The notes under the pieces were generated by a model. It saw nothing but the letters and a program-made list of their open reading frames with translations, did not search any database and had not been told where the DNA came from. A stretch of DNA of 29,819 nucleotides from positions 1 through 29,819 of the IMG/VR virus record IMGVR_UViG_3300028377_000039; one strand, written 5' to 3'. Below are positions 1,701 to 25,029 of this stretch, piece after piece. The position numbers and the translations under genes were made by a program. How positions within the stretch are numbered: position 1 is the first letter of the stretch; each line of letters starts with the position of its first letter. The DNA is from a virus.

Positions 1701-3881
1701 ATGTATAACAAATTGAAAAAAGAGTCTGGGAAATTACCAGAAGTTAAAATGTCAGTTTCAGATGACGGTGACGGTCCTACTGGAAGTGGTAGTGGTAAGA
1801 AAAATATTGGTAAGGGAAAAGATTCCAAATCAAAAAAATCCACAACACCTGTTTTGGATTCCTTCGGAAGGGATTTAACAATTTTAGCCAATGAGGGTAA
1901 ATTAGATCCTATAATCGGAAGACAGAAAGAAATCGATAGGGTTTCACAAATCTTATCTAGACGTAAGAAAAACAATCCTATCTTAATAGGTGAACCTGGT
2001 GTTGGTAAAACAGCAGTTGCTGAGGGATTAGCCCTTAAAATAATGGAAAAGAAAGTTTCTCGAATCCTTTTCGATAAAAGGATTATAACTTTAGATTTAG
2101 GAACGTTAGTAGCGGGTACTAAATATAGAGGTCAATTCGAAGAAAGGATGAAGTCTATAATGGATGAAGTTCAAAAAAATGATAATATCATCTTATTTAT
2201 AGATGAGATACACACCATGGTTGGTGCGGGTGGGACATCTGGATCATTGGATGCAGCGAATATATTAAAACCATCTCTTGCAAGAGGTGAAATGCAATGT
2301 ATTGGAGCAACAACTCTTGATGAATATAGACAACATATTGAAAAGGATGGAGCATTAGCAAGACGTTTTCAAAAGGTTGTAGTTGATCCAACATCTCCAG
2401 AAGATACAATGACTATTCTTGAGAATATAAAGGATAAATATGAGAGTCATCACAATGTAACATATAGTGATGAAGCATTAGCAGCATGTGTTAAATTAAC
2501 TGAGAGATATATAACCGATAGAAACTTACCTGATAAAGCAATTGATGCTTTGGATGAAACAGGTTCAAGGGTTCATATATCTAATATCATTGTACCTAAA
2601 GCAATCACAGATACTGAAGATAAAATTAGTAAAATTGGTATAGAGAAGAAAAAAGCTATCCAATCTCAGAAGTACGAAGAAGCAGCAGACCTTAGAGATT
2701 TTGAAAAAGAATTAGATTCTAAATTAGAAAAGGAAAAGGAAAAATGGGAAGAATCATTAAAGAAAAATAGAAAACTTGTTTCCGAAAGAGAAGTTTCAGA
2801 AGTTGTTTCTATGATGTGTGGTGTACCAGTTGATAGAGTTTCAGAAGATGAAGGTAGTAAATTAGTTGACCTTGATAAAACTATTAAAAATAAAGTTGTA
2901 GGACAAGATGAAGCTGTTCAGAAAGTAGTTAAAGCTATTAAAAGAAACAGAAGTGGTCTTAAAGATCCTAATACTCCAATAGGAACATTTATATTCCTTG
3001 GTGATACAGGGGTAGGTAAAACCCAACTGGCTAAAATTTTAGCTGAGAATATGTTTGAGGGTAAAGATTCTTTGATTAGAATCGATATGTCAGAATATAT
3101 GGAGAAATTCTCAGTATCTCGACTTATCGGAGCACCTCCAGGATATGTAGGACACGATGAGGGTGGTCAATTAACAGAAAAGGTTAGAAATAACCCATAT
3201 AGTATTATACTATTAGATGAGATAGAGAAAGCTCATCCAGACGTATTTAATCTATTGTTACAAGTACTTGATGAGGGTACTCTTACAGATAGTTTAGGAC
3301 GTAAAATAAACTTCAAAAATACTATTGTTATTATGACATCTAATATTGGTTCTCGACAACTAAGTGAGTTTGGAACAGGTGTAGGTTTTGCTACAGGGTC
3401 ATCAAAAACAAAAGAAGAAGAAAATTCTAAGGGTGTTATCCAAAGTGCTTTGAAGAAAGCATTCGCTCCTGAGTTCTTAAACAGAGTTGATGATGTTATT
3501 ATGTTCAGAAAATTAGATAAAAAAGATATATCAGAAATCATAGATATTGAATTAGAAAAATTATCAGAAAGAGTTGAAGGACTTGGGTTTAAAATGAAAT
3601 TCAATAAGAAGGTTAGGAATTATATTGTTGAGAAAGGATTTTCTAAAGAGTACGGAGCTAGACCTTTAAAAAGAGCTATTCAAAAGTATATTGAAGATGT
3701 AGTTGCAGAAGAAATGATAAATAATACAAAAATTTCAGAAGGATCAGTTATATCTATTGGATATGATAGTAAGGAGGAAGAGGTTACAGTTAAAATAACT
3801 GAACCAAAAACGAGATCAAATAAATCATCTAAGTCTGATGATAATGATGATAGTAATGTTAACCCAAAAGAAGAAGTATAA
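1701..3881 (+). CDS. clpC: ClpC-like AAA+ unfoldase without N-domain
   Basis: This 726-residue double-AAA+ Clp/Hsp100 protein should unfold substrates with ATP and thread them into ClpP. Domain D1 carries Walker A GEPGVGKT (97-104) and Walker B ILFIDE (164-169). A UVR-like coiled middle region follows (about 315-360). D2 has Walker A GDTGVGKT (434-441), Walker B IILLDE (502-507) and the ClpP-docking tripeptide VGF (561-563). Wording such as PVLDSFGRDLT and ILSRRKKNNPILIGEPGVGK resembles Bacteroidota ClpC. Cellular ClpC is about 810-850 residues. Here the whole Clp_N repeat domain is absent and replaced by about 48 low-complexity residues rich in Gly, Ser, Lys and Asp. The C-terminus ends in an acidic Ser/Asp/Asn tail. 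The clpP gene follows after 27 bases, which supports a working pair. An identity as ClpA is less likely because of the middle domain. Confidence 0.93.
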   Translation: MYNKLKKESGKLPEVKMSVSDDGDGPTGSGSGKKNIGKGKDSKSKKSTTPVLDSFGRDLTILANEGKLDPIIGRQKEIDRVSQILSRRKKNNPILIGEPGVGKTAVAEGLALKIMEKKVSRILFDKRIITLDLGTLVAGTKYRGQFEERMKSIMDEVQKNDNIILFIDEIHTMVGAGGTSGSLDAANILKPSLARGEMQCIGATTLDEYRQHIEKDGALARRFQKVVVDPTSPEDTMTILENIKDKYESHHNVTYSDEALAACVKLTERYITDRNLPDKAIDALDETGSRVHISNIIVPKAITDTEDKISKIGIEKKKAIQSQKYEEAADLRDFEKELDSKLEKEKEKWEESLKKNRKLVSEREVSEVVSMMCGVPVDRVSEDEGSKLVDLDKTIKNKVVGQDEAVQKVVKAIKRNRSGLKDPNTPIGTFIFLGDTGVGKTQLAKILAENMFEGKDSLIRIDMSEYMEKFSVSRLIGAPPGYVGHDEGGQLTEKVRNNPYSIILLDEIEKAHPDVFNLLLQVLDEGTLTDSLGRKINFKNTIVIMTSNIGSRQLSEFGTGVGFATGSSKTKEEENSKGVIQSALKKAFAPEFLNRVDDVIMFRKLDKKDISEIIDIELEKLSERVEGLGFKMKFNKKVRNYIVEKGFSKEYGARPLKRAIQKYIEDVVAEEMINNTKISEGSVISIGYDSKEEEVTVKITEPKTRSNKSSKSDDNDDSNVNPKEEV

Positions 3882-3894
3882 AACTTCTTCTTTT
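3866..3894 (+). terminator. hairpin across the clpC stop codon
   Basis: A perfect 12-bp inverted repeat (AAAAGAAGAAGT / ACTTCTTCTTTT) with a five-base loop spans the clpC stop codon. It ends in TTTT, 15 bases before the clpP start. It could be a weak intrinsic terminator or attenuator that sets the clpC:clpP ratio, or an mRNA stability element. Confidence 0.4.
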
Positions 3895-3908
3895 ATAAAC
3901 CAATTAAA

Positions 3909-4676
3909 ATGGATTTAAATAAAGAATTTTATGAATATGCTACAAAGCATCATAACATTAAAGCGGGGGTCTTAGACCAACACTTTGGGTTTGATGTGAA
4001 ATCTGGTATAGATGCTAGTGTTCCTAGCATAGAAGCAAGTATGACACCTTATATCTTAGAAGAAAGAAAAATGAGGGTTACTCAAATGGATATCTTCTCA
4101 AGATTGATGAGAGATAGAATTATATGGCTTGCTGGACCAGTTAATGATAGAATGTCAACAGTAGCTCAAGCACAATTAATGTTTCTTGATGACACAGAGA
4201 AAAAAGATATAACTCTACATATAGATTCACCAGGTGGGTCTGTTAAAAGTGGTCTTTCGATTGTTGATGTCATGGATTATATAAAATCCGACATAGCAAC
4301 TGTTAATACTGGAATGTGTGCTTCAATGGGGTCAGTACTCTTAGGAGCAGGGACAAAAGGTAAGAGGTCAAGTTTAAGGTTTTCACAAGTAATGTGTCAC
4401 CAAGTATCACATGGTACTCATGGTAATATCCAAGATACACGGATAACACATAAAGAAGGTGAAAAAGCTAATTATATTCTTGGTAGATTACTTGCACAAT
4501 ATAGTGGTAAAGGATTTAAAGAATATATGGAGACTGTTGTTAGAGATAAATGGTATACTTCAACAGAAGCTAAAAACTTCGGTCTTATTGATGAAGTTAT
4601 AGAATCTAAAAATTCAACTATTGATGAGTTACTAGAAGGGTTTGATGAGTATTATTCTGAAATGAATAAAATTTAA
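3909..4676 (+). CDS. clpP: ClpP-type serine protease subunit
   Basis: This 255-residue protein aligns by eye with ClpP, the barrel peptidase that degrades proteins fed to it by Clp unfoldases. The triad is present: Ser139 in MCASMGS, His164 in MCHQ, and Asp213 in VRDKW. The oxyanion-side loop DSPGGSV (106-112) and GAGTKGKRSSL are also conserved. It has about 45-50 extra N-terminal residues before the usual MTPYILEER start, possibly a processed propeptide. Val follows HQ where Pro is usual. It follows the clpC-like gene by 27 bases and is followed two bases later by another gene, so it is probably co-transcribed. Bacteroidota ClpP is the closest type I recognise. Confidence 0.93.
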   Translation: MDLNKEFYEYATKHHNIKAGVLDQHFGFDVKSGIDASVPSIEASMTPYILEERKMRVTQMDIFSRLMRDRIIWLAGPVNDRMSTVAQAQLMFLDDTEKKDITLHIDSPGGSVKSGLSIVDVMDYIKSDIATVNTGMCASMGSVLLGAGTKGKRSSLRFSQVMCHQVSHGTHGNIQDTRITHKEGEKANYILGRLLAQYSGKGFKEYMETVVRDKWYTSTEAKNFGLIDEVIESKNSTIDELLEGFDEYYSEMNKI

Positions 4677-4678
4677 AA

Positions 4679-4930: not shown

Positions 4931-4949
4931 TTTAAATAAAAAATTAAAA

Positions 4950-6543: not shown

Positions 6544-7131
6544 ATGTTCAAAAGTATAGATCTAAATAAATTTGTATTTAAAGTATTAATAGCTAATGTG
6601 GTATTATATATAATATCACTATTTTTAAGCGAACATGATTTGGTTAAAATGTATGGGTTCAGCTTTTATTCTGAAGATTTTAACATTATCCAGTCTTTAA
6701 CCAGTATGTTTTTACATGGTGGATTTTCTCACCTATTCTTTAATATGTTAGTTCTTTTAATATTCGGATATAGTATTGAAGAGGATATAGGGACAAAAAA
6801 AATAATATTTCTATACTTAATAAGTGGATTATCTGGTTGGTTTATCGATTCATTAATACATGGGCATCCAAGTATAGGATCATCAGGAGCTGTTAGTGGG
6901 ATAATGGCATCAACCCTAATAATATTCCCAAAAAAAGAGATATCATTATTTTTCTTACCATTCAAATTTAAACTTAAATGGTTAGTTATTCTTTATTTTA
7001 TAGTAGAAATATTTAAAGCATTCTCATTTTCAGATGATGGTATATCCCATTTTTGCCATATAGGTGGTTTTATAGGTGGGTATTTATATACTTTATATTT
7101 AAAAGATGGAAAAATGAAGTTAAAATTTTGA
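6544..7131 (+). CDS. rhomboid-family intramembrane serine protease
   Basis: This 195-residue, very hydrophobic protein has about six predicted membrane helices. It carries the rhomboid signatures: His63 and Asn67 in HGGFSHLFFNML, the catalytic Ser114 in GSSGAVSG (112-119, GxSG), and His172 in CHIGGFIGGYLY. Rhomboids cut substrates within the membrane. The length fits a minimal six-helix bacterial rhomboid. The start lies after an A/T-rich leader (AAATAATTAATAA) without a Shine-Dalgarno site. The catalytic residues are intact, so activity is plausible. A role in superinfection exclusion, membrane quality control or cleavage of a host protein is speculation. Confidence 0.9.
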   Translation: MFKSIDLNKFVFKVLIANVVLYIISLFLSEHDLVKMYGFSFYSEDFNIIQSLTSMFLHGGFSHLFFNMLVLLIFGYSIEEDIGTKKIIFLYLISGLSGWFIDSLIHGHPSIGSSGAVSGIMASTLIIFPKKEISLFFLPFKFKLKWLVILYFIVEIFKAFSFSDDGISHFCHIGGFIGGYLYTLYLKDGKMKLKF

Positions 7132-13694: not shown

Positions 13695-14942
13695 ATGAAA
13701 TACATACGAGAAAGAAATCAATTTAAATTTAATATAACACTACCAAAGGTAGTTAAACTTATCAATTCTATATTTGAGAAAGGTGGGTATAAGTTATATT
13801 TAGTTGGTGGTGCTGTAAGAGATTTCATTGATGGGAGAAAACCTAAAGATTTTGATGTTGCTACAAATGCTACACCAAAAGAGGTAGTTGAAATGTTCTC
13901 TGAAATATTCGGAATTAAAAAAGAAAAAGCTAATGAATACATTTTAAATAATAAGTGGAGGATTAACTTACAGGGTGAATCTTTTGCGGTTGTAGTTATC
14001 TATATCCCTGGGGAAAGGGAAGGTATCGAGATAGCTTCTTTTAACACTCGACATGATGGTAAAATCGTGGTAGATGGTGTAACTCTTGAACAAGATGCTG
14101 AAAGAAGAGACCTTACCTTTAATGCTCTTTATTATGATATATCTAAGGGTGAAGTAATTGATCTTGTTGGGGGGGTTGATGATCTGAAAAATAAAAAAGT
14201 TAGAATGGTTGGTGATCCTGATGAAAGAATTAAAGAAGATCCTTTAAGAATCCAAAGAATATTTAGATTTGCTTGTAGATATGATAGTGTAATGGATGAA
14301 GAAACCAAAAAAGCCATTAATGGGAATAAAGATCTATACCGAAATTCCACTCCTGAGAGACCTAATGGTGTTTCCCAAGAAAGGATAATTCAAGAGTTTG
14401 TAAAATCATTTAAGACATCTCCGGATTTCACCACATACTTAGGTTTTATTAATGAATTTAAAATGTGGGATATACTATTCCCTGGTATCAGTTTTGGTAC
14501 ATTTGATATAAGTAAATATACATCAACAAACAAGTTGAGTATCTGCTTGTCTCAAATATTAATCAATGAGGGGATGGATATCTTTAAATCAATTATGGTT
14601 AATGAGTGGAAGTTTCCTAAAGATATAACTCAAGAAACATCTTTATTTGTTGAAATGACTCGGTTGGAAATGAGTAAGAAAGCAGTTAACTTGAAAATGA
14701 GAAAAGAAAGGTTCAACATTTCAGATAAAATCACTAAAGAGTTCATTAACCTAATGGGATTGAATGATAAGGAAATTATCAAAAGTTTCTTAAAGTTCGA
14801 TCCAACTATTGATTCTAAAAAATTAATGGATAAGAATGGTATTGAGAATAATAATGGTAAAATAAAAAACCCATCAAAGGATGGTAAAAAATTAGGTATG
14901 TTAATATCTAAGGAAAGAATAAATAATTTTAATTCTTTATAA
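13695..14942 (+). CDS. CCA-adding / poly(A) polymerase-type nucleotidyltransferase
   Basis: This 415-residue class II polymerase-beta nucleotidyltransferase carries GGAVRD (38-43) and the metal-binding DFDVAT (Asp52 and Asp54). It also has RRDLTFNALYYD (138-149, the sugar-discrimination motif) and DERIKEDPLRIQRIFRFACR (176-195, the base-templating motif). About 25 extra residues sit in the head domain between the catalytic loop and IASFNTRHDG. The family includes tRNA CCA-adding enzymes, which repair or complete tRNA 3' ends, and bacterial poly(A) polymerases; sequence alone does not separate them well. The tmRNA in this window lacks an encoded CCA, which favours a CCA-adding role. The next gene starts one base after its stop. 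Confidence 0.88.
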   Translation: MKYIRERNQFKFNITLPKVVKLINSIFEKGGYKLYLVGGAVRDFIDGRKPKDFDVATNATPKEVVEMFSEIFGIKKEKANEYILNNKWRINLQGESFAVVVIYIPGEREGIEIASFNTRHDGKIVVDGVTLEQDAERRDLTFNALYYDISKGEVIDLVGGVDDLKNKKVRMVGDPDERIKEDPLRIQRIFRFACRYDSVMDEETKKAINGNKDLYRNSTPERPNGVSQERIIQEFVKSFKTSPDFTTYLGFINEFKMWDILFPGISFGTFDISKYTSTNKLSICLSQILINEGMDIFKSIMVNEWKFPKDITQETSLFVEMTRLEMSKKAVNLKMRKERFNISDKITKEFINLMGLNDKEIIKSFLKFDPTIDSKKLMDKNGIENNNGKIKNPSKDGKKLGMLISKERINNFNSL

Positions 14943-16722: not shown

Positions 16723-17328
16723 TTATTTTTTAAATCCTAATTGTTTTGATCTATGGTTGAAAATTTCAGCTATCTTTTTAAGTGTTTTTTTAGAATATAA
16801 TTTTGTTGATAATTCAGAACCAATGGAATTATATAATGATAATATTTTTTCCGCTGATAACGCTCGGTAAAAAGCTTTCTCTCCATTTTTTATTTTATCA
16901 GCTTGATTTTGGGTTATTTCTATAGCCTTATCATGATCCCCATCAGCCCTTCTAATTATATCATCTATCCTTTTATCATGTTTTTTTAACATTGAAAGAG
17001 ACTGGTGTTCATTTAATATATTTTCATATTTAGATATATTATTATCCAACCCATTAAACTTAGCTTCTTGTAAAACTTTCAAGGAATCCATTACATCTTT
17101 ATCTTTAAATAAATCCACAATAGCACTAATAAACACATCCTTACCAACGATTTTAATAGTTCCTTCAAGTATAGGATCGATTGGTCCCTCTATTCTAATT
17201 TTCAAAAAATCATTAATTAGTTTACTTATAGTATATTTCAGAGTTCTTTCTTCCAAGTCACCTTCCTCTTCTTTGATTTCTGGCTTTTGGTTTACTTTTG
17301 ATTTTGTTATTTTACTGAATTTATTCAT
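16723..17328 (-). CDS. hypothetical helical protein, 201 aa
   Basis: The first gene of the leftward trio. After a basic and acidic N-terminal stretch (MNKFSKITKSKVNQKPEIKE), the protein is almost entirely helical. Likely coiled segments are KVLQEAKFNGLDNNISKYEN and KHDKRIDDIIRRADGDHDKA. It ends NHRSKQLGFKK. A TTTAATATATA element lies 23 bases upstream (17351-17361). Function unknown; a structural or scaffold-like role is only one possibility. Confidence 0.6.
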   Translation of the reverse strand: MNKFSKITKSKVNQKPEIKEEEGDLEERTLKYTISKLINDFLKIRIEGPIDPILEGTIKIVGKDVFISAIVDLFKDKDVMDSLKVLQEAKFNGLDNNISKYENILNEHQSLSMLKKHDKRIDDIIRRADGDHDKAIEITQNQADKIKNGEKAFYRALSAEKILSLYNSIGSELSTKLYSKKTLKKIAEIFNHRSKQLGFKK

Positions 17329-17350
17329 ATAAATAATTATTTTTATATAA

Positions 17351-17361
17351 TATATATTAAA
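17351..17361 (-). promoter_or_regulatory. TTTAATATATA motif upstream of leftward operon
   Basis: An 11-base partial copy of the 13-mer motif on the minus strand, 23 bases before the ATG at 17328. It is in the right position to start the three-gene leftward operon. Confidence 0.3.
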
Positions 17362-17393
17362 TAAACTTTTTTAAATTGTGTGATATAATTATT

Positions 17394-18134
17394 ATGTTTA
17401 CTAAAAAAATATTTATTGATAGAATAAAGGAAATTAATCCAGTGCCACTTTCTATATTATGGATAATACTCTTGTGTTTTATGATGATAGGGTATAGTAT
17501 GAGAGAAAAGGAAATATATAATTTGGAAGATTATGTAGTAGAAAATAGGGATAAATACATCACTTCTTTAGATCATAAAGATTCCATCATTTCAAGTAAG
17601 AACCATGAAATAGATTCTTTAGAAGATTATTTAGATTCTAAAGAATATTTGGAATTTTTAATTTATAAGGAAGCTCATTTAGATGATTTTAAAGTTAATT
17701 TATCTAGAGTTGATTATAAAACATTAAACCTAATGGTGGAGCAAGCTGATAAATATAATATACCATATACTATATATTTTAGGTTAATTGATATGGAATC
17801 CGGTTTTTCATTTATACCTAACAAATCATCTGGAGCATTTGGATATATGCAATTAATGCCACAGACTTTCAGATCATATTACAATAAACTTAATTTAACC
17901 GGTGGTCACACAAGGGAAAATAACATTATAATAGGTAGTTATAAACTAAATAAGAATTATAAAAAATGGAGATGTAGGGGTAAAAAGGATTGTATGTCTT
18001 GGGAATATACTTTAGCTGAATATAATACAGGAGAAGGTAAAATGCAGATAAAGAAAGAGGGTAAAGTTGTGGGATTTTATATCCCATCATATACAAAAGG
18101 TTATATCAGTTACATAATGAGATATTATAATTAA
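17394..18134 (+). CDS. membrane-anchored SLT lytic transglycosylase
   Basis: I use the ATG at 17394, because the frame also extends to a TTG six codons upstream that is less likely. The 246-residue protein has one membrane helix (about 17-34, PLSILWIILLCFMMIGY), then a charged, probably coiled stalk (about 38-110), then an SLT goose-lysozyme-like domain. The catalytic Glu135 is in DMESGF, GAFGYMQLMP spans 147-156, and AEYNTG spans 208-213. Such enzymes cut the glycan strands of peptidoglycan. The anchor and stalk place the active site in the periplasm, fitting a lysis enzyme or a wall-remodelling factor. No holin is clearly next to it. Confidence 0.88.
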   Translation: MFTKKIFIDRIKEINPVPLSILWIILLCFMMIGYSMREKEIYNLEDYVVENRDKYITSLDHKDSIISSKNHEIDSLEDYLDSKEYLEFLIYKEAHLDDFKVNLSRVDYKTLNLMVEQADKYNIPYTIYFRLIDMESGFSFIPNKSSGAFGYMQLMPQTFRSYYNKLNLTGGHTRENNIIIGSYKLNKNYKKWRCRGKKDCMSWEYTLAEYNTGEGKMQIKKEGKVVGFYIPSYTKGYISYIMRYYN

Positions 18135-18152
18135 ATAAAATTAAAGAAAATT

Positions 18153-18443
18153 ATGGGTTTAATGGAAGAATATAAAAAAGACATGGATACTTCATCTGAA
18201 TGGACTACATATATAGAATGGTTAGAAGAGAGAACTAAACGTATTGAAAATAAATATGAGAATTCCTTATCTGCTTTACTATCTATTTATGATAGTTTAA
18301 AACTACATGATAATGGGCAATTATTTAATGATGATGAGACATTAACTCAAATAATGTTTCGTAAAATGAAAGGTTATAATGTTGATCTAAATAAAGAATT
18401 AAATTTCACTCACTTAAAACCCACAAAAAAACAACTTCATTAA
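18153..18443 (+). CDS. hypothetical coiled-coil protein, 96 aa
   Basis: This acidic helical protein contains MEEYKKDMDTSSEWTTYIEW, then LEERTKRIENKYENSL. The TYIEWLEE segment recalls the 44-residue protein at 31-165. The gene sits 18 bases after the transglycosylase and may be expressed with it. No domain was recognised. Confidence 0.55.
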   Translation: MGLMEEYKKDMDTSSEWTTYIEWLEERTKRIENKYENSLSALLSIYDSLKLHDNGQLFNDDETLTQIMFRKMKGYNVDLNKELNFTHLKPTKKQLH

Positions 18444-18480
18444 TTATTTTATTAAAATTCCCATGGAAGTAGTATGGAAA

Positions 18481-18493
18481 TTTAATATATAAA
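18481..18493 (+). promoter_or_regulatory. TTTAATATATAAA start-proximal motif
   Basis: An exact plus-strand copy of the 13-mer, four bases before the ATG at 18498. Having the same motif on both strands, always facing a start codon, argues that it is functional. Confidence 0.45.
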
Positions 18494-18497
18494 TCTA

Positions 18498-19409
18498 ATG
18501 GGTAACTCAATTTTAAATACTAAAGAATATTGGAATAATCATGATGTGGAATACATTTTAAATCAAAAAATGCTTATAAATGAAGATAATGCTTATGTTC
18601 CTAGATTCAGTTTGAAGGATATAGAAATATTTAGTGATGTTCCAGTGAATAAACCATTGAAACCATCAAAAGATCTTTTAATTAAAGCTATTCAATATGG
18701 TATGATATTCCTTATTAACTATAAAGGTGCAGAAGATGATCACTTCTCCGGTCACGAAAGGGTTATATATCCAATGGTACTTGGTAAATCATCAAAGCAG
18801 AAATATTTATTAAGAGGTCACCATTTAAATGGTTGGTCAGTCTCACAAAACAGACACGTTAATAAAGTATGGAGGTTATTCAGGGTAGATAGGATACTTT
18901 CAATGACCTTTACTGGATCGTTTTATAGATTACCCCCTGATGGATATAAGATTAACGATAAGGGGATGATAGGTGGTATAATTGCTAAAGCAGATTTCAA
19001 TAGAATAAGGAAAAATCAACAAACATTAGTTAATAAAGAGAAAATACAAAGTAAAGAAGAAGTTAGTTTAGAAAAAGATGGTAAGAAATTTGCTATAGTG
19101 AAAGCTAAAGATACTGATAGTATCTTAGATCTAAATGATGTGTTTGATAATCAATATGTGGAAAATTCCAAAGATATCGACAATCTTAGAATAAGTTTTC
19201 TTAAAAGTGTTTATGGTAATAAATATGCTGCTATGTTAGGAGCGATTGGTAAACCAGGAAATACTATTAAATTAATAGACTCTGATAACAATAAGACCGT
19301 GGGTACGTATAGGGTTTTAGATAGTGTGGATGGATCATCTTTAAAAAAGATCAAAAGGGTTAAAGGTAATTCTAAATATGATCTTTATATTTTCGATAAG
19401 AAGGTTTAA
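18498..19409 (+). CDS. WYL-like domain protein
   Basis: This 303-residue protein contains a WYL-type ligand-sensing fold at about 65-150: AIQYGMIFLINYKG, then RVIYPMVLGKSSKQKYLLRG, YHLNGW-like HHLNGWSVSQ, and VWRLFRVDRILSMTFTGSFY. That matches the WYL order of strand, Arg-x-Ile-x-Pro, Tyr-Leu, and Phe/Arg-x-Asp-Arg-Ile. WYL domains often bind nucleic acid or nucleotides and control transcription or defence genes. No helix-turn-helix is visible. The C-terminal half is unassigned and ends with strands (GTYRVLDSVDGSSLKKIKRV). The stop abuts the 3' end of the leftward HAD gene with no gap. Confidence 0.65.
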   Translation: MGNSILNTKEYWNNHDVEYILNQKMLINEDNAYVPRFSLKDIEIFSDVPVNKPLKPSKDLLIKAIQYGMIFLINYKGAEDDHFSGHERVIYPMVLGKSSKQKYLLRGHHLNGWSVSQNRHVNKVWRLFRVDRILSMTFTGSFYRLPPDGYKINDKGMIGGIIAKADFNRIRKNQQTLVNKEKIQSKEEVSLEKDGKKFAIVKAKDTDSILDLNDVFDNQYVENSKDIDNLRISFLKSVYGNKYAAMLGAIGKPGNTIKLIDSDNNKTVGTYRVLDSVDGSSLKKIKRVKGNSKYDLYIFDKKV

Positions 19410-19967
19410 TTACATACTATAAGAAACATCTCCTTTATAATCACTATTAATCCCTACTCCTTTAAATGATTCTAAGATATCGATAACTTTTAATAAAGTA
19501 TCATCATCACACCCATTATACTTTCTGATGTTTAAAACATTACCATCATAAGCACAGTTTGGCTCACTATCTATGAATAATATATCTTCTTTATTATATC
19601 CCTTTATTTTATTAATACTTTTTATTCTATGCGTCCCATAACCAAATCCGCAAATTTCATAATGTCTGAGTGTGCATTTTTTTATTGAATATGAAAATTC
19701 TATTTTATCTTTAATTCCTAAAACATCAATTGTACCATCTATATAATCTTTATGTTTAGAAGATGACCATATACCAACTTTAAAATTATTAAATAGATAT
19801 TTAAAGAATGTATCAAGGTGGTTTCGTTTACAAGTTAAAGCCTCCCCATTTAATATTTTAGCCCCATTCATTACTTGTTGATAACTAGGTAATTCTATAC
19901 TAGGATATATTGTATTTATTATAACATTTTCTAAATCTAATATGATTATTTTATTATTATCGGACAT
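19410..19967 (-). CDS. HAD-superfamily, FCP1/SCP-like phosphatase
   Basis: The 185 residues follow the HAD order. Motif I is ILDLENVI (nucleophile Asp11, but with Glu13 where the second Asp is normal). Motif II is VGIWSSSKHKDY (Ser68-70). A Lys-rich segment HRIKSINKIKG holds motif III, and FIDSEPNCAYD (Asp133) holds motif IV. The order and the 'YNKEDILFID' wording resemble NLI-interacting/FCP1-type phosphatases. The Asp-to-Glu change could lower phosphatase activity or alter specificity. The substrate is unknown. It converges with the WYL-like gene. Confidence 0.7.
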   Translation of the reverse strand: MSDNNKIIILDLENVIINTIYPSIELPSYQQVMNGAKILNGEALTCKRNHLDTFFKYLFNNFKVGIWSSSKHKDYIDGTIDVLGIKDKIEFSYSIKKCTLRHYEICGFGYGTHRIKSINKIKGYNKEDILFIDSEPNCAYDGNVLNIRKYNGCDDDTLLKVIDILESFKGVGINSDYKGDVSYSM

Positions 19968-19983
19968 AATTTAAAATTTTGCA

Positions 19984-19996
19984 CTTAATATATAAA
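19984..19996 (+). promoter_or_regulatory. CTTAATATATAAA motif
   Basis: A 12-of-13 match to the recurrent motif, 29 bases before the ATG at 20026, in the divergent gap between a leftward and a rightward gene. Confidence 0.35.
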
Positions 19997-20025
19997 ATAA
20001 TAATAAGAAAACAAACAATAAAGAA

Positions 20026-20532
20026 ATGAAAAACATTAAAATAAATAGGATTGAAAGGTTTGGTGATTTTATTTTAGAGAAAGTTTATTTATATAAAACT
20101 ATTTTTAGTAAATATAACCTAATAGTAGATCCATTATCCAAAGTTGGTCATTTTAACTTAGATGTTAGGGGGTTTGGTGATGTTAAATTAGAAATAGAAA
20201 AATATGGCAAGGATGGTAATATTTTTATTATAAGAAATCCAAATATTAATATAGATGATGAGTTAAATATATTTAAAAATATAATAAATGATATTATTTA
20301 TATTCTTAATAAAAATAGGTTAGATTATAAATTCAATTTAATTGAGGTTAAAAAAGAAACACAATTGGATATTTATGCCTTAATTGAATGTGATATGGAT
20401 ATTAATATAGGGGAATTGGAAAAAATATCCCAAACAACAAAGATAGTGAATGCTAAAGTAACAGATAAAGAAGATTTGGATAAATTAGTTTATAAGACAT
20501 CTGGTGGAGGTGTTTCTTCATACAAAAAGTGA
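20026..20532 (+). CDS. hypothetical protein, 168 aa
   Basis: It begins MKNIKINRIERFGDFILEKV. The RFGDFILE segment is similar to the capsid-targeting-like starts, but placed a few residues later. The body alternates strands (FNLDVRGFGDVKLEIEKYG) and helices (DELNIFKNIINDIIYILN) and ends with a Gly/Ser-rich tail (TSGGGVSSYKK). No known family. The next gene converges from three bases away. Confidence 0.55.
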   Translation: MKNIKINRIERFGDFILEKVYLYKTIFSKYNLIVDPLSKVGHFNLDVRGFGDVKLEIEKYGKDGNIFIIRNPNINIDDELNIFKNIINDIIYILNKNRLDYKFNLIEVKKETQLDIYALIECDMDINIGELEKISQTTKIVNAKVTDKEDLDKLVYKTSGGGVSSYKK

Positions 20533-20535
20533 TAT

Positions 20536-20907
20536 TTATAAATATATAAACTCACCATCTTCCATATAATAATAAAGTTGGTATTCTTCATCAAGATAAA
20601 CTTCATGTAGGTTACCACTCACATCCCTATAATATAAATCTTCACCATTAGACCTGAACCCAACAGCAAACATCTCATCACCCTCAATATTTTTTAACCT
20701 ATTATTCAAGCTATCGATTTTTTCAATGACTATGGATTCATTATCTTTTATTAATCGGATTATATTTTTTTCTAATTGTTCTTCGGAATTACTTTTATGG
20801 TCTTGATATTCGTTATATATCCATCCTAATGCACCACATATTATTGTAATTGCAGTAGTTACTGATGCAATATGTACTATTTTTTTTGAGAATTTAGTTA
20901 ACGCCAT
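20536..20907 (-). CDS. single-pass membrane protein, 123 aa
   Basis: Residues about 10-31 (IVHIASVTTAITIICGALGW) form one membrane helix after a short basic N-terminus, so the protein is probably anchored with its bulk on the periplasmic side. A coiled helix follows (EEQLEKNIIRLIKDNESIVI), then a Tyr-rich beta C-terminus (LYYRDVSGNLHEVYL, ending in DGEFIYL). A spanin-like or membrane-remodelling role is conceivable from the topology, but no spanin signature is seen. A TTTAATATATA element is at 20932-20942. Confidence 0.6.
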   Translation of the reverse strand: MALTKFSKKIVHIASVTTAITIICGALGWIYNEYQDHKSNSEEQLEKNIIRLIKDNESIVIEKIDSLNNRLKNIEGDEMFAVGFRSNGEDLYYRDVSGNLHEVYLDEEYQLYYYMEDGEFIYL

Positions 20908-20931
20908 AATTTCTATTTTAATCTTATAATG

Positions 20932-20942
20932 TATATATTAAA
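20932..20942 (-). promoter_or_regulatory. TTTAATATATA motif
   Basis: A partial minus-strand copy of the recurrent motif, 24 bases upstream of the ATG at 20907. Confidence 0.3.
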
Positions 20943-21012
20943 AAACAAAATCATTATTTACTAAATAAAATAAGAAGATATAAACCAACTCATGTTTTGA
21001 AGATGAGATATG

Positions 21013-21040
21013 AATACTAAAAACAAAAGTATTATTTTTT
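21013..21040 (+). terminator. weak hairpin with T run
   Basis: AATACT (21013-21018) pairs with AGTATT (21028-21033), followed by ATTTTTT. The six-pair AT-rich stem is weak. It lies in the 170-base gap before the peptidase gene and could be an attenuator or chance. Confidence 0.2.
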
Positions 21041-21080
21041 ACTATACTATTAGTAAATGATGTAATAAAACAAAAGATAT

Positions 21081-22061
21081 ATGAATATTAAAGAAAAATT
21101 TATAGAACTAACTTCAAAAACGTATCCTCACCCACAGGATATTGAAGTATTAAAACTATTGCCTGATGGTCTAACAGAAGATCCATTTGGTAACTATTAT
21201 AAAGTAATAGGTGACTCAGACACTATATTCTCAGCTCATTTAGATACAGCAGACATGAACCAAAAAGATGTAACTCATATTTTTGATAAAGATGAGAATG
21301 GTGATGAATGGATAAGAACTGATGGCACTTCTATATTAGGAGCTGATGATAAAGCAGGTGTGGTAGTACTACTCTATATGATGGAGAATAAAGTACCAGG
21401 TATATATTACTTCTTTGTTGGTGAAGAAGTTGGATTAGTTGGGTCTGGTAGGTTATCAGATAACTTCGAAAAATTTAAATTTCTAAGTGATGTTAAACGA
21501 ATGGTTTCATTTGATCGTAGAGCATTTAATTCTATTATAAGTAGACAGATGGGTAGAAACTGCTGTTCAAAGGAATTCGTAAGTGATTTATCAGAACAAT
21601 ATGGTAAAAATGGATTGGTTATGACTGATGATCCCACTGGTATTTATACTGACTCTGCTATTTTTATAGATAAAATACCAGAGTGTACAAATATAAGTGT
21701 TGGTTATTTTAACGAACATACACATAGAGAGTGTCAGAATATTAGTTTCCTTGAAAGGTTATGTGAAGCTTCTATAAATGTTAAATGGGATGAATTAGAT
21801 ATAGGAAGAAGTTTAGGTATAGATGAAGATTTATATGATGAAAAAGAGGAAATAATTGAACATATAGAATCTTTAGAATTTATAAATGGGAAATCTATAC
21901 ATGAGGAAGATGGTAAATTATGTATATCATTAACAGTTGAAGATACTTCAAGTGAGGTTTTATTGACTGAAATAGAAGCTTTAGTAGAGACATTCAATAA
22001 ATTTAAAAGCGATATAGATGTTAAAGTAAATCAAAATACTATTGAAATACTTGTTGATTAA
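21081..22061 (+). CDS. zinc metallopeptidase, M20/M28/M42 (MH clan) type
   Basis: This 326-residue protein has the conserved metal-ligand order of di-zinc exopeptidases. His53 and Asp55 are in FSAHLDTA, Asp89 in ILGADDKAGVVVLL, Glu115-Glu116 in VGEEVG, Asp145 in VSFDRR, and a late His (213 or 215) in FNEHTHRECQN. The segment TDGTSILGADDKAG is closest to peptidase T-like enzymes. These enzymes trim short peptides in the cytoplasm. The usual dimerisation insert is short or absent, so it looks like a compact M28/M42-like form. It could finish peptides released by ClpCP. It leads a rightward run with the next two genes. Confidence 0.8.
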   Translation: MNIKEKFIELTSKTYPHPQDIEVLKLLPDGLTEDPFGNYYKVIGDSDTIFSAHLDTADMNQKDVTHIFDKDENGDEWIRTDGTSILGADDKAGVVVLLYMMENKVPGIYYFFVGEEVGLVGSGRLSDNFEKFKFLSDVKRMVSFDRRAFNSIISRQMGRNCCSKEFVSDLSEQYGKNGLVMTDDPTGIYTDSAIFIDKIPECTNISVGYFNEHTHRECQNISFLERLCEASINVKWDELDIGRSLGIDEDLYDEKEEIIEHIESLEFINGKSIHEEDGKLCISLTVEDTSSEVLLTEIEALVETFNKFKSDIDVKVNQNTIEILVD

Positions 22062-22073
22062 TTAATTAAATAT

Positions 22074-22370
22074 ATGGGAAAATTACAAAGGGATGAATTT
22101 ATAACTAATAAATTAAAAGAATTAATTCATCAATTCGAAGATATAAAAATTCGTTACGAATTTAAAAAGAGTACAAACGTTCATTTAGTTGAAGTATTAC
22201 CATTTGCCCTATTTGATAATAATACTGAATATATCTTAAAAGAGTGTGAAATTCAAGATAGGTTTGAAGATCTATTTGGATGTGATACAGATGAAGAATT
22301 GTTATTTATATCAGATAACTCTTTAAATGAAATTGAAGAATCTGAAGGAATTAAGATACTGGATGATTAA
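22074..22370 (+). CDS. hypothetical acidic protein, 98 aa
   Basis: It begins MGKLQRDEFITNKLKELIHQ, has a strand-rich centre (KIRYEFKKSTNVHLVEVLPF) and an acidic C-terminus (SLNEIEESEGIKILDD). It starts 12 bases after the peptidase gene. No motif was recognised. Confidence 0.6.
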   Translation: MGKLQRDEFITNKLKELIHQFEDIKIRYEFKKSTNVHLVEVLPFALFDNNTEYILKECEIQDRFEDLFGCDTDEELLFISDNSLNEIEESEGIKILDD

Positions 22371-22389
22371 GGAATGACTTATATATAAT

Positions 22390-22398
22390 AATATATAA
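22390..22398 (+). promoter_or_regulatory. AATATATAA core motif
   Basis: The core of the recurrent motif, three bases before the ATG at 22402. The same spacing and core occur at 24280-24288 before the ATG at 24292. Confidence 0.35.
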
Positions 22399-22401
22399 GT
22401 C

Positions 22402-23481
22402 ATGAAAAAATTACAGAAATATGATTATTTTATAAATGAATCACTTAGTAAAAAAGTGTTCCATTTCACATATTTGACTAATTTAGACAACATTCTTTCA
22501 GAAAATGTTCTACAGTCCACACCGGTCATGGGAACAGGAGCAGATGCTAATCAGAACAAGGATAAATTTTATTTCTTTTCTACTACTTCATCTAGACATT
22601 CCGAGATAGGATTTGGTGCTAGTTTACCAAAAAGAGGATTAGTTAGACTAAACTTAAATGGTGATAAATTAAACCAAAATTATAAAGGCACTAGGGTTGA
22701 TTACTGGCAAAGACCAAAAGATCCAAAAGATCCAATATATAAAAATTATGCTGCTGCCGGTAGTAAAGCACATTTAAAGCATGTATCAAGACAAGATGAA
22801 TTAGAGGATAGATTAATGACTGATGAACCATTAATTAAAAATGCTAATAAGTATATAGACTCTATAAGTGTATTATTCAGTGAGGATGAATATAGGTTTG
22901 AATATGATTATAAAATAATGATGAAGATATTAGATAATGCTAATGAATTGGATATACCAATTTACTTTTATAATAATCAAGATGCATTTGACCATGAATT
23001 AACTAATAAATCAGTAAATATTAGTAAATTGAAAGTTGATGAACCAGAAGATGAAGAGGAATATGTTAGTAGAATGATAGAAATGACGAGAATATTATCA
23101 TTATTATTTTATGCTGATGAAGATCTTAGAGATAGTCTAATAAAAGGTCTCAGTAAGATAGAAGAATTTAAAGATAGATTAAAGGCGAGAGAAAATACTT
23201 TTGATGATTTCATCGAATATATCGATAAGAAATCCGATGATGATAGAAAGAACTATTTATACTACATAAATGATGATTTTAAAAAGAATGACTTTCCGAT
23301 AACTGATTATATAAGTGCAGTATCTAATGATGTACATAACGGTAAATCCAAACCCTACGAACATAGAAGATATATAACACATGAACTATCAAAGGATATG
23401 AGAAAGAATAATACTAAAAACCTATACGAGTATATCAAGTATAAAGTAAAGCTAGGTCATGAAAAATTTCCAAAAAAGTAA
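22402..23481 (+). CDS. candidate ADP-ribosyltransferase-like protein
   Basis: This is a 359-residue protein. The N-terminus MKKLQKYDYFINES resembles the T4 capsid-targeting sequence MKTYQEFIAE (Tyr-x-x-Phe-Ile-x-Glu). Residues about 20-140 show an ADP-ribosyltransferase-like order: His21 in VFHFTYLTNLDNIL, Tyr57 in KFYFFSTTSSRH, VRLNLNGDKLNQNYKG and DYWQ, then DELEDRL with Glu133 and Glu135. This is compatible with a His-Tyr-Glu type site. The rest is helical and acidic, with no assignment. If both readings hold, it could be a head-packaged enzyme injected with the DNA, as T4 Alt is. The fold is inferred by eye, and DarT or Tpt1-like relatives are alternatives. Confidence 0.5.
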   Translation: MKKLQKYDYFINESLSKKVFHFTYLTNLDNILSENVLQSTPVMGTGADANQNKDKFYFFSTTSSRHSEIGFGASLPKRGLVRLNLNGDKLNQNYKGTRVDYWQRPKDPKDPIYKNYAAAGSKAHLKHVSRQDELEDRLMTDEPLIKNANKYIDSISVLFSEDEYRFEYDYKIMMKILDNANELDIPIYFYNNQDAFDHELTNKSVNISKLKVDEPEDEEEYVSRMIEMTRILSLLFYADEDLRDSLIKGLSKIEEFKDRLKARENTFDDFIEYIDKKSDDDRKNYLYYINDDFKKNDFPITDYISAVSNDVHNGKSKPYEHRRYITHELSKDMRKNNTKNLYEYIKYKVKLGHEKFPKK

Positions 23482-23552
23482 CTGTTATAAAGTTTATTTA
23501 AAATTTGGTAGTTTCGGTAAAATTCCATATCTTTATGGAAAAGTATTAAGAT

Positions 23553-23717
23553 ATGAAAACAAAATTTAAAAAATATAAAGGATTTATTAGATGGGGAGCA
23601 ATGATACCAATTGTAATAATTATACCAGATCCATTAATTTATATATCATTGATTTTTTTAAGTATACAATTAACTTGCTTTGGGTTAATGTGTTATATTG
23701 GATGGGGCTTTGATTAG
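23553..23717 (+). CDS. small membrane protein, 54 aa
   Basis: An ATG frame begins MKTKFKKYKGFIRWGAMIPI. It has two hydrophobic stretches (about 16-36 and 38-52, VIIIPDPLIYISLIFLSI and LTCFGLMCYIGWGF) after a basic N-terminus. The gene fills most of the 270-base gap between the ART-like gene and the HAD gene. It could be a holin-like or toxin-like peptide, but nothing more specific is visible. Confidence 0.45.
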   Translation: MKTKFKKYKGFIRWGAMIPIVIIIPDPLIYISLIFLSIQLTCFGLMCYIGWGFD

Positions 23718-23753
23718 TAAATAGTAATAATAAATTAAATTAAATTAATAGTT

Positions 23754-24281
23754 ATGAAAGTTTTATTTTTAGATAATGATGGTGTTATATGTTTAAGTAA
23801 CAACTGGGGTGGTAGGCATAAGAAAAGGGAAAGGTTCATTAAGGAAAATCCCAATATCACTAAAATACCTATCAATTTCACCTTTGATGATTTTGATAAA
23901 AAGTCTATTGATGTTTTAAATTCTATTATAGAAGAAACTGATTGTGAGATTATAGTGTCTTCTGATTGGAAATTACACGCTAATTTAAAGGAACTATCTG
24001 AGTATTATTTATCACAAGGTATTTCTAAAGCACCCATAGGATGTACTCCAAATATGGAGGTTTTTGATCCAAAAATGGATGATTTGTATATGTTTAGGGG
24101 TAATTTATCAGAAAAAAGAGAAATTGAAATTAAAAGGTTTTTAGATAATAATAAAATTGATAAGTGGGTAGCAGTTGATGATTTATATATGAAGCTAGAT
24201 AATTTTGTTTATTGTCCTATACAAAATGAGGGTATAAAACAATGTGGTAGAAAAGAGAAAATAATCGAATATTTGAAATAA
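23754..24281 (+). CDS. HAD-superfamily hydrolase
   Basis: The 175 residues carry a full set of HAD motifs. Motif I is FLDNDGV (Asp7 and Asp9). Motif II is IIVSSDWK (Ser69-70). RGNLSEKREIEI holds the Lys/Arg of motif III. WVAVDDLYM (Asp142-143) is motif IV. The SSDW segment and arrangement resemble HAD domains linked to RNA-repair proteins and phage polynucleotide phosphatases, so 3'- or 5'-end phosphate removal is one candidate activity. No kinase or ligase domain is attached. An AATATATAA element follows directly and serves the next gene. Confidence 0.75.
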   Translation: MKVLFLDNDGVICLSNNWGGRHKKRERFIKENPNITKIPINFTFDDFDKKSIDVLNSIIEETDCEIIVSSDWKLHANLKELSEYYLSQGISKAPIGCTPNMEVFDPKMDDLYMFRGNLSEKREIEIKRFLDNNKIDKWVAVDDLYMKLDNFVYCPIQNEGIKQCGRKEKIIEYLK

Positions 24282-24288
24282 TATATAA
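24280..24288 (+). promoter_or_regulatory. AATATATAA core motif
   Basis: The same core and spacing as at 22390-22398, ending three bases before the ATG at 24292. It overlaps the stop codon region of the HAD gene. Confidence 0.35.
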
Positions 24289-24291
24289 GTA

Positions 24292-24555
24292 ATGAAAGGA
24301 GTCGAAAAGTTAAAAGATTTATTTTCAAAGATTTTAAAATCTAGAGATGTTAAAGGTAAAAACATAGAGATATTAGAGGAAAAATTAAATTTTACTATTG
24401 CTGTGAATATCAGTATAACAAATTTAGAGGAATTGAAAAATATTTTAATATCTTATCGACAAATTGAAATAATTCTTAAAGATGATTATGAATCAGAAAT
24501 AGATTTATATTCACCTTATTTAGAATTATATTTAGATAAAATAGAAAATAAGTAA
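24292..24555 (+). CDS. hypothetical protein, 87 aa
   Basis: This Lys/Glu/Ile-rich protein begins MKGVEKLKDLFSKILKSRDV and continues with a strand-helix pattern (FTIAVNISITNLEELKNILI) to a C-terminus ending YLDKIENK. No motif. It is the last gene before the tmRNA. Confidence 0.55.
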   Translation: MKGVEKLKDLFSKILKSRDVKGKNIEILEEKLNFTIAVNISITNLEELKNILISYRQIEIILKDDYESEIDLYSPYLELYLDKIENK

Positions 24556-24586
24556 TGAAATATTTCTTATTTTTAAACATTTGATG

Positions 24587-24642
24587 TATATTTGTTATAC
24601 AATAAAAAACAATACTAATTAAAAGAAATTAGTTCTTTGACA
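24587..24642 (+). promoter_or_regulatory. tmRNA promoter and boxA-like element
   Basis: TATATTTG at 24587-24594 fits the Bacteroidota -7 consensus TAnnTTTG, about 50 bases before the mature tmRNA 5' end. GTTCTTTGACA at 24632-24642, just upstream of the RNA, resembles the boxA antitermination element (TGCTCTTTAACA), which is common before stable RNA genes. A clear -33 box is not obvious. Confidence 0.45.
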
Positions 24643-24645
24643 TAT

Positions 24646-25029
24646 GGGGGTGACTTGGAATAGATCACTGACAATTGAGAGTAGTAAGCAGGTATCGGAT
24701 TTTCTATTAATGTGTCCGATTAATAAATTAGTAGGAAAATGCTTAATTGCAAACACGAATGAAGTCGGCTCAGTAGCTGACGTATTAACAGTAGTTAATG
24801 AAACTGCGGAAGCAGTTTCAGTCTAGTTGGAGAACTAGGTCTATTTGTAAATACTACGATAAACTCAAAAGCAGGTTGGTTACTTTACTGTAATAAAAAT
24901 ATGTAACACAGAGTTTTTTATTTCTCTGAAACAAAAATAAATATTTGTTTGTTTAGAATAAATAAACTAAGCTTGTAGAAATCATTTTTAATGTTAGATG
25001 AGACATGGGTTCGAGACCCATCATCTCCA
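24646..25029 (+). ncRNA. ssrA: transfer-messenger RNA (tmRNA)
   Basis: The ends form a tRNA-like half. GGGGGTG (24646-24652) pairs with CATCTCC (25022-25028), discriminator A25029 follows, and the T-arm is ATGGG-TTCGAGA-CCCAT (25005-25021). CCA is not encoded (CTA follows). Helix 2 pairs 24668-24673 with 24992-24997. Pseudoknot 1 is clear: ATCGGA/TCCGAT (24694-24699, 24715-24720), with loop 24700-24710 pairing to 24728-24739 with one bulge. The resume codon GCA (24749-24751) follows TAATT, matching the E. coli TAGTC context. The frame ends at TAG 24824-24826. It gives 25 residues starting ANTNEVGSVA, like ANDENYALAA, but ending AEAVSV instead of a Leu-Ala-Ala type end. Later hairpins (24802-24819, and others up to 24960) and CTAAGC-x-TGTAGA near the 3' side are also tmRNA-like. 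Confidence 0.92.

Follow-up and report, generated by a model that had tools for sequence, protein, structure and literature searches.

A tmRNA with a long tag, ClpC, ClpP and a peptidase in a huge-phage fragment: a probable phage-encoded trans-translation pathway

The best explanation of the DNA studied here, to which we give a probability of about 0.55, is that it belongs to a huge phage with its own trans-translation, based on a long tag that represents a phage-only type, whose products most likely go to the phage's own ClpC, ClpP and peptidase. Once charged with alanine, the tmRNA would be loaded by SmpB (encoded by the kin phages themselves, and here outside the fragment). In infected cells it would free ribosomes that have stalled on broken mRNA, adding the long tag in place of the usual ~10 residues. 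Unfolding by a phage ClpC devoid of N-domain would be the most likely fate of the tagged products, provided that the tag is recognised; a ClpP presumably paired with this ClpC would then cut them and the phage peptidase would trim the resulting peptides. At the level of sequence, the tmRNA, its tag frame, the enzymes with their motifs and the SmpB and ClpC of the kin are all there, and it is plausible that the tmRNA/tag and the Clp machine of the fragment work together. The host is probably a member of the Bacteroidota. The five genes claimed by an earlier note on this DNA are all present in the window, that is, the whole 29.8 kb fragment analysed (Table 1); the length of the tag, the loss of the ClpC N-domain and the SmpB of the relatives go beyond that note.

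Table 1. Location of the features discussed in the window.
Feature	Position	Strand	Remarks
tmRNA (ssrA)	24646..25029	+	384 nt; ends of the mature RNA deduced from the paired acceptor; gene without CCA
Tag reading frame	24749..24826	+	25 codons, ANTNEVGSVADVLTVVNETAEAVSV, and TAG stop; from alignments to Rfam consensus and kin tags
PK1-type stem ATCGG/CCGAT	24694..24720	+	Same letters in all three aligned tmRNAs
Promoter-like element TATATTTG	24587..24594	+	51 nt 5' of tmRNA
ClpC-type unfoldase	1701..3881	+	Two AAA modules with short UVR middle domain and VGF loop; N-domain missing
ClpP	3909..4676	+	Ser/His/Asp motifs; starts 27 bases past the clpC stop
CCA-adding / poly(A) polymerase-type nucleotidyltransferase	13695..14942	+	Pfam-type and PHROGs matches
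MH-clan (M20/M28, PepT-like) peptidase	21081..22061	+	Domain, PHROGs and structure matches; kin alignment

The tmRNA had been described as structurally complete, and this is borne out by a full-length match to RF00023 that a focused scan gave (24646-25032, model 1-374; 45.7 bits, E 1.6e-16) and by the letters themselves, which give an acceptor stem of 7 bp (7/7 paired, with G3-U70) and a T-arm with a 5-bp T-stem and the loop TTCGAGA. The default Rfam scan reported nothing because the score falls slightly short of the 47-bit gathering threshold, and ARAGORN reported nothing either; long-tag tmRNAs are missed or under-scored by these two standard tools. The fold is more stable than expected (z = -4.18; 0/100 shuffles equally stable). 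Sequence comparison indicates that the molecule resembles the tmRNAs of its kin, and a DNA-similarity search gave weak pieces only, one of which led to the tmRNA of LR756502. A search for acceptor and T-arm across the tag family imposed GGG and TCC ends; it left 4/83 entries without acceptor and gave one false match (L270). Since G3-U70 was imposed by the search itself, the idea that all members of the family share this pair was given up.

Compared with bacterial tmRNA-SmpB trans-translation (RF00023, PF01668), the order of acceptor stem, PK1-type stem, tag frame and T-arm is the same, G3-U70 is present in the window tmRNA and SmpB is found in the kin, whereas the 25-residue tag, the lack of SmpB in the fragment and the score under the Rfam cut-off set the window apart. 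Upstream of the gene, the promoter-like element matches TAnnTTTG, which we take to be the Bacteroidota -7 promoter consensus. Elements of this type occur in 47/58 distinct stretches upstream of kin tmRNAs (background 5.8%), mostly 10-29 nt 5' of the gene, compared with 51 nt in the window.

The tag is the most unusual part of the molecule. The commonest tag length in the tmRNA database is 10 (PMC11915505). The window tag, an open frame downstream of PK1 whose resume codon would be GCA, has a hydrophobic end and belongs to a family with lengths of 27-30 residues, of which it is an outlier (32% to the first sequence of the alignment; no closer relative than the family members was found). The tag alignment alone, used as query, retrieved 98 viral stretches, 80 of which were kept, and the 5' domain of a tmRNA lies immediately upstream of the tag in 79 of them. 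One pattern gave 108 matches in 84,980 prokaryote genomes and no relative of the family; no relative of one family tag was found in 72,556 plasmids, and a search with the 5' core gave 25 viral stretches and 0 prokaryote stretches. By these searches of viral, prokaryote and plasmid sequences, the long-tag family is confined here to viral sequences. That a tag-only search finds viral loci alone, 79/80 with the tmRNA 5' domain, supports the main reading. Other huge-phage lineages carry other, apparently distinct long tags of 21 to about 34 residues. Tags are short in Lak phages (10 residues in Lak-B1) and of ~9 residues, on an uncertain reading, in phage G; tmRNAs were found in G063 and G075, and the script read no tag from either. 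No printed description of long phage tmRNA tags was found.

It is highly improbable that the long frame is under constraint mainly as RNA, with tag-region hairpins that shape the tmRNA and a peptide that is a by-product, as might be thought from the three successive hairpins into which this region of the window folds and from the modest selection on the frame (median dN/dS 0.54, with other frames close to that value). Against this, the frame and its stop are kept in 80/80 loci with lengths of 27-30, although the choice of loci by tag similarity favours an intact frame, and variation is highest at codon position 3 (0.202 vs 0.135 and 0.127). The modest selection and the outlying position of the window tag nevertheless weaken the preferred reading, in which phage tags lead to phage enzymes.

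The best-conserved part of the family tags is the inner core TNEV..EDLV.AL rather than the C-terminal end. This bears on a more specific version of the main reading, which we think less likely than not: in huge phages of several lineages, lineage-specific long tags would be labels read by the N-less phage ClpC with ClpP, the core acting as recognition site and the hydrophobic end as a grip for the pore, and phage enzymes, among them the peptidase, would recycle the failed products. The conserved core also argues against the distinctly unlikely alternative that the phage tmRNA feeds host ClpXP and upholds rescue at host shut-off, the long tags being drift plus an end degron. The several more, apparently distinct long tags speak against it as well; the short tags of Lak phages, the scattered genes of the kin and the final A or V of all tags read would suit it. 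Family tags end in ATV, MTV, AVV, SLV, ELV, EVA or QFA, that of the window in VSV and none in LAA, which would agree with a tmRNA that rescues ribosomes with an altered tag sparing phage proteins from host ClpXP, while the phage ClpCP serves otherwise. Clp ATPases in phages with no detected tmRNA also fit such evasion. We consider it unlikely, given that A or V ends are possible in degrons, that the tags of several further lineages finish with AVAA, AVA or IAA, and that ClpC accompanies the long tag in every large record tested (see below).

The window unfoldase is an N-less ClpC-type protein. It matches AAA_2 (8.5e-69), ClpB_D2-small (2.8e-22) and UVR, its two AAA modules, UVR middle domain and ClpP loop being those expected of ClpC, and its best solved relative is S. 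aureus ClpC (6em8, E 1.7e-233), a Firmicutes ClpC which it resembles in both AAA modules, the UVR middle domain and the VGF loop. The ATPase motifs and VGF loop were said to be intact, and GEPGVGKT, GDTGVGKT and GTGVGFATG were located at 97, 434 and 558. Unlike 6em8, the window protein lacks the N-domain: its alignment starts at residue 152 of the 6em8 chain and no Clp_N match was obtained in the domain search. MecA-type adaptors dock at the ClpC N-domain, and therefore such docking would not be expected here. The neighbouring ClpP (CLP_protease 1.5e-51; 2zl0 1.5e-42) carries CASMGS, MCHQ and RDKWYT, in keeping with the S14 family and with the intact Ser-His-Asp triad claimed for it. Its best PHROGs matches are head maturation proteases; the adjacent clpC favours a ClpP that partners an unfoldase over a prohead protease. 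As a single query in IMG/VR this ClpP gave no relatives, unlike the SmpB alignment, which did retrieve them.

The earlier note had seen no smpB and held that host SmpB would be needed. The first part stands, with 0 matches across the fragment; the second is put in doubt by the SmpB genes of all four huge phages searched whole (LR745206, LR756502, LR756504 and Lak-B1), and a phage-encoded SmpB beyond the fragment ends is therefore likely. The co-occurrence survey proposed in that note gave a divided answer. ClpC and ClpP often accompany SmpB (27/45 and 18/45 SmpB-bearing records, most of them fragments) or a long tag: among the long-tag records of 200 kb or more that were tested, 13 in all, a count that omits L344 (242 kb, long tag) and most of the 80 tag-search contigs, ClpC is present in 13/13 and ClpP in 10/12 tested. 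Among 16 tested long-tag records below 200 kb, ClpC is present in 10 and absent in G005, G015, G026, G034, G060 and G068. The comparison by tag type at this size sets those 13 against one short-tag record, Lak-B1 (10-residue tag), which has tmRNA, SmpB and ClpP and no ClpC.

On the other hand, Clp ATPases also occur in phages with no detected tmRNA. Jumbo phages such as GAP32, BF, CBB, PA5oct and RaK2 share with the window a phage-borne Clp ATPase and ClpP, but their ATPase matches are about 41-46% identical and no tmRNA was detected; the result for jumbo phages with Clp ATPase (0/8) is a soft negative, as the model also misses the tmRNAs of LR745206 and LR756502. ClpC-type matches were found in three SmpB records of 200 kb or more that gave no tmRNA: G007 and G035, searched with both models, and LR756501, searched with RF00023 alone. 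These ATPases and records, together with Lak-B1, weaken the main reading.

Gene arrangement is also two-sided. In the closest kin the parts lie no nearer than chance (0 pairs within 12 kb; 5/5 records), a dispersal that counts against the main reading. In some other lineages ClpC, peptidase, tmRNA and SmpB lie within about 6-10 kb, or DnaJ, ClpP and tmRNA have a peptidase or FKBP as neighbours; for three records, from two lineages, this clustering has P 0.0135-0.0197. The tmRNA-peptidase linkage is found in 74/80 tag loci, of which 69 have it upstream and same-strand and 5 have it downstream and on the opposite strand, and 5 of the 6 misses have < 400 nt of contig upstream. As a strong sign of joint function this linkage was downgraded, because five other neighbour families are kept nearly as often (31, 30, 29, 28 and 22 of 33 clusters). 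Nevertheless, the window retains the pair, 2.6 kb apart, with none of those five families.

The dispersal and the shared linkage of the block would also suit a huge phage with many translation and proteostasis genes in which the tmRNA, the Clp proteins, the CCA enzyme and the peptidase each work on their own, as would the wide spread of peptidase relatives (382 phage records) and CCA-type enzymes (461). This we regard as doubtful in view of the 13/13 for ClpC, the clusters in other lineages and the pair kept in the window outside its block. Linking the genes into one system, as the earlier note did, is supported in part, with the large long-tag records and the clusters on its side and the dispersed kin genes against it. 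Our preference for phage trans-translation coupled to phage proteolysis is supported by the ClpC count, SmpB in 4/4, the adjacency of clpC and clpP, the clusters, the retained tmRNA-peptidase pair and the promoter element before the tmRNA.

The remaining enzymes are of the types first proposed. The nucleotidyltransferase (PolyA_pol 1.8e-28; phrog_2244 1.9e-53 over residues 32-413) falls in the class II family, with putative CCA-adding activity. It had been thought to serve the tmRNA. CCA is indeed unencoded here, CTA following the discriminator A at 25029, but no special link was seen, some kin tmRNAs encode CCA themselves, and phage tRNAs explain the enzyme as easily as the tmRNA does. The peptidase matches phrog_4191 (2.3e-63), Peptidase_M28 (21.9 bits, cut-off 21.3) and, over a short stretch only, the tripeptidase 3rza (E 1e-5). 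The residues that we take to be metal ligands and catalytic acids are intact in the kin alignment: H53, D55, D89, E115, E116, D145 and H213 are kept in 74 or 75 of 75 sequences and D90 in 72/75. Its best matches in the kin are the paralogs adjoining the tmRNA.

Huge phages with tmRNA and SmpB are already published (Al-Shayeb et al. 2020, PMC7162821), and the long tags are what is new here. Those phages are of the same kind as LR745206, LR756502, LR756504 and Lak-B1, in which SmpB was found; their tmRNAs were assigned with ARAGORN, 'Clp' occurs 0 times in the main text, and tag length is unmentioned in the passages concerned. The moraphages (PMC12619734), jumbo phages predicted mostly to infect Bacteroidota, have a Clp ATPase, a putative peptidase and a sigma factor among their shared groups, but tmRNA and SmpB appear 0 times in the main text of that paper.

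A phage tmRNA could be a mere spare of the host's own gene. Because the long tags are viral-only here and persist among diverged phages, and because the two standard tools miss or under-score their tmRNAs, the family suggests instead that phages have re-engineered the label itself. If such labels are indeed read by the phage's own ClpC and ClpP, failed translation products in infected cells would escape host quality control. Tag-protease pairs from long-tag phages may be orthogonal to bacterial pairs, and through this family virus-built protein quality control becomes a testable question.

The window tmRNA scores 45.7 bits when aligned end-to-end with RF00023, the Rfam tmRNA covariance model, against a gathering score of 47; since it falls under this threshold, default tmRNA scans report nothing in the window. 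Its fold is more stable than those of all 100 shuffled sequences (z -4.18), and the acceptor (GGGGGTG paired with CATCTCC) and the T-arm (ATGGG-TTCGAGA-CCCAT) can be read from the sequence. The discriminator A is followed by CTA, therefore CCA is not encoded, as the earlier note had stated. A GCA triplet is the presumed resume codon, and the frame from there to TAG encodes ANTNEVGSVADVLTVVNETAEAVSV, a tag of 25 residues. The tag of mycobacteriophage Bxz1 is reportedly also of about 25 residues. The tag region folds into three successive hairpins, with a fourth over the stop codon. The commonest tag length is 10 among the 97,179 unique tmRNA sequences of a database that includes 79 phage sequences (available part of PMC11915505).

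As far as sequence comparisons reach, the strongest new point of this analysis is a long-tag family which is found in phages only. RF00023 gave no tmRNA in the huge phages LR756502 and LR745206, though both carry one, located via weak similarity and then read from the sequence. Two models, RF00023 and a 5'-domain covariance model built on three sequences, were applied to 45 records, whose tags were read by hand. The records are LR745206, LR756502, LR756504, Lak-B1 and 41 IMG/VR loci out of the 80 retained in a SmpB search with 349 relatives. The tags of the window's relatives align, with the consensus GKTNEVGTREDLVAALQNNMLxVxELAxV; the window tag has NTNEVGS in common with them and diverges afterwards. 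An alignment of ten tags, used as sole query, retrieved 98 viral stretches, of which 80 were kept. The tmRNA 5' domain lies immediately upstream of the tag in 79 of these loci (the exception is L241), a stop codon closes the frame in all 80, and a 3' acceptor motif is found 157-191 nt past the stop in 73. Their 41 distinct peptides have 29 (55 loci), 27 (13), 30 (10) or 28 (2) residues. In 84,980 prokaryote genomes the same alignment matched 108 times, in one pattern, without yielding a relative; one long tag gave 0 matches in 72,556 plasmids and hit only LR745206 and LR756502 among 50,697 phage records, and the 5'-domain core occurred in 25 viral stretches vs 0 prokaryote ones. The median dN/dS of the tag is 0.54 (28 distinct sequences), the pooled ratio of the tag frame, 0.63, is below those of the two alternative frames (0.74 and 0.87), and position 3 is the most variable codon position in the tag frame; these figures, biased because the loci were picked via tag similarity, point to moderate selection at the peptide level.

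Other huge-phage lineages carry long tags (GNVLNKMALVGLVRQDELVNVA and its kin, GNIFNIDENFLANASVEVVAGEAIAA and its kin, DNVNSFEQSILNELFAPVEMAVAA and AKVELSTWTVEDALAFVDGEYAVAA) that are apparently distinct from this family, and the tag of the huge phage LR756508 has about 34 residues. Tags of 10 residues occur in Lak-A1, Lak-B1, Lak-C1 and the SmpB-bearing record G020, and one of about 9 (an uncertain reading) in phage G. Five bacterial-like tmRNAs from small contigs have tags of 9 to about 17 residues. Besides its full tmRNA, LR756508 has a second tmRNA-like domain (L304; 112 nt, 58 bits), too short for the usual tag frame, which resembles the tag-less tmRNA form that phage DS6A reportedly has. 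In a fixed reading of 35 distinct tmRNA 3' ends (L207-L286; one is false) that resolves part of them, 20 have a fully paired 6-bp T-stem, whose loop is GGCAGT[AG]-like in most cases, in place of 5 bp with a TTCGANN loop, and five, window included, have a fully paired 5-bp stem.

All five genes that had been linked into one rescue and degradation pathway (tmRNA, ClpC, ClpP, CCA-type enzyme and peptidase) were recovered by sequence and structure matches and motifs. The window, with 25-32% GC in 2-kb steps, also encodes a sigma factor, a homing endonuclease, a transglycosylase, a Fpg/Nei-like glycosylase and two phosphatase-type domains. clpC precedes clpP by 27 bases. Among GenBank phages, the nearest ClpP is that of LR745206 (635 kb; 67.6%), and the nearest ClpC are those of LR756502 (642 kb) and LR745206 (67.0% each). 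The window ClpC is without the N-terminal domain and aligns with S. aureus ClpC from residue 152 onwards; among 27 ClpC-matching records, open frames of 666-736 residues occur in 21, and longer ones in G018, G028, G030, G031 and G035 (820-870) and G038 (755). In the locus L300, just upstream of clpC on the opposite strand, a 126-residue protein has two UVR motifs; we take it to be McsA-like, and it is a candidate ClpC partner.

Coordinates of features in the window and in two other loci
Feature	Sequence	Position	Remark
ClpC	window	1701-3881	
ClpP	window	3909-4676	
Rhomboid-type membrane protease	window	6544-7131	2e-31
Peptidase	window	21081-22061	
HAD_SAK_2 domain	window	23754-24281	name taken from RNA repair proteins; in the peptidase-tmRNA interval
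tmRNA	window	24646-25029	discriminator A at 25029
Tag frame	window	24749-24826	GCA at 24749, TAG at 24824-24826
Tag-region hairpins	window	24760-24840	
Two-UVR protein	L300	2029-2409	opposite strand to clpC
Second tmRNA-like domain (L304)	LR756508.1	414804-414915	

In 74 of the 80 long-tag loci, the peptidase is no more than 6 kb away from the tmRNA, upstream on the same strand in 69. Matches to the window peptidase occur in 24/45 records (1-8 per record), and the best one adjoins the tmRNA in the eight highest-scoring records, not so in LR756504. Its metal ligands are conserved in nearly all 75 aligned sequences, and a query from G029 found relatives in 382 phage records, many of them 43-kb phages. 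LR745206, LR756502 and LR756504 have 5, 4 and 8 matches per genome, an expanded family. Five other families are common to the conserved neighbourhood around tmRNA and peptidase in the relatives (31, 30, 29, 28 and 22 of 33 clusters); none of them was found in window 17001-29819, and tmRNA and peptidase are 2.6 kb apart there despite this absence.

Distances between the parts were tested over 13 large records. They are no nearer than chance in the window's relatives LR745206, LR756502, G001, G002 and G004 (0 pairs within 12 kb), and likewise in G029 and G007. Clustering was found in G032 (3/6 pairs, P 0.020), G036 (3/6, P 0.019) and LR756504 (2/6, P 0.0135), and the closest pairs of G031, G039 and G041 gave P 0.03-0.12; G032, G036 and G041 are one lineage, judged by tags. 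The order is ClpC, peptidase, a 454-residue protein, tmRNA and SmpB in G033 (with extra genes in G036), DnaJ, ClpP, tmRNA and peptidase in G031, and DnaJ, ClpP, tmRNA and FKBP in G034, with small frames interspersed in the latter two. In L290 and L291, ClpP and tmRNA lie near DnaJ, in one also near FKBP, as a small phage proteostasis cluster.

No SmpB match was obtained in the 29,819 bases of the window, an IMG/VR virus record, in line with the earlier note, which proposed that host SmpB would be needed. Four of four huge phages (LR745206, LR756502, LR756504 and Lak-B1; picked by ClpP similarity) encode their own (167-186 bits), and the gap is best explained by the record being a fragment, with a phage SmpB probably encoded outside it. 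ClpC was matched in 27/45 records and ClpP in 18/45, mostly fragments, and ClpC in 10 of 41 further ones (39 more SmpB loci, LR756501 and LR756508). Among tested long-tag records of at least 200 kb, ClpC is present in 13/13 (LR745206, LR756502, LR756504, LR756508, G001, G002, G004, G029, G031, G032, G036, G039 and G041) and ClpP in 10/12 (missing in G001 and G039). LR756508, which is not among the 60 of 67 SmpB matches listed, is no independent case because it was picked by its ClpC, and 12/12 remain without it; these counts are not independent either, since the lineages are related. The one short-tag record of this size tested for ClpC, Lak-B1, has none (0/1), and no tmRNA was found in the equally large SmpB records G007 and G035 (5'-domain model and RF00023) and LR756501 (RF00023 only). 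As a control, RF00023 gave 0/8 tmRNAs in jumbo phages, six of them Clp ATPase carriers (GAP32, Phosso, PA5oct, XaC1, BF and CBB) plus 121Q and RaK2 (kin with Clp ATPase), and, in the same run, 3/3 in Lak-A1, Lak-C1 and phage G; it is a soft negative because this model misses the tmRNAs of LR745206 and LR756502.

TAnnTTTG is the -7 element of Bacteroidota. Of 83 entries, 58 distinct stretches were left after removal of duplicates, contig ends and those lacking a matching 5' motif. In 47 of the 58 the element occurs at most 80 nt upstream of the tmRNA (vs 5.8% of random stretches), in 46 of the 47 at 10-29 nt; in the window the distance is 51 nt. This suggests that the tmRNA would have its own transcript and the phages Bacteroidota hosts; such hosts are predicted for most moraphages (available part of PMC12619734).

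Huge phages with tmRNA (assigned by ARAGORN) and SmpB (available part of PMC7162821) and phage tmRNAs (available part of PMC4131195) were already described; among the open-licence PubMed Central papers listed, none was found that treats long phage tags or links a phage tmRNA to ClpC. Although the parts are scattered in the relatives, ClpC in 13/13 tested large long-tag records partly supports reading these genes as one pathway, and a tmRNA-to-Clp route encoded by the phages themselves is plausible.
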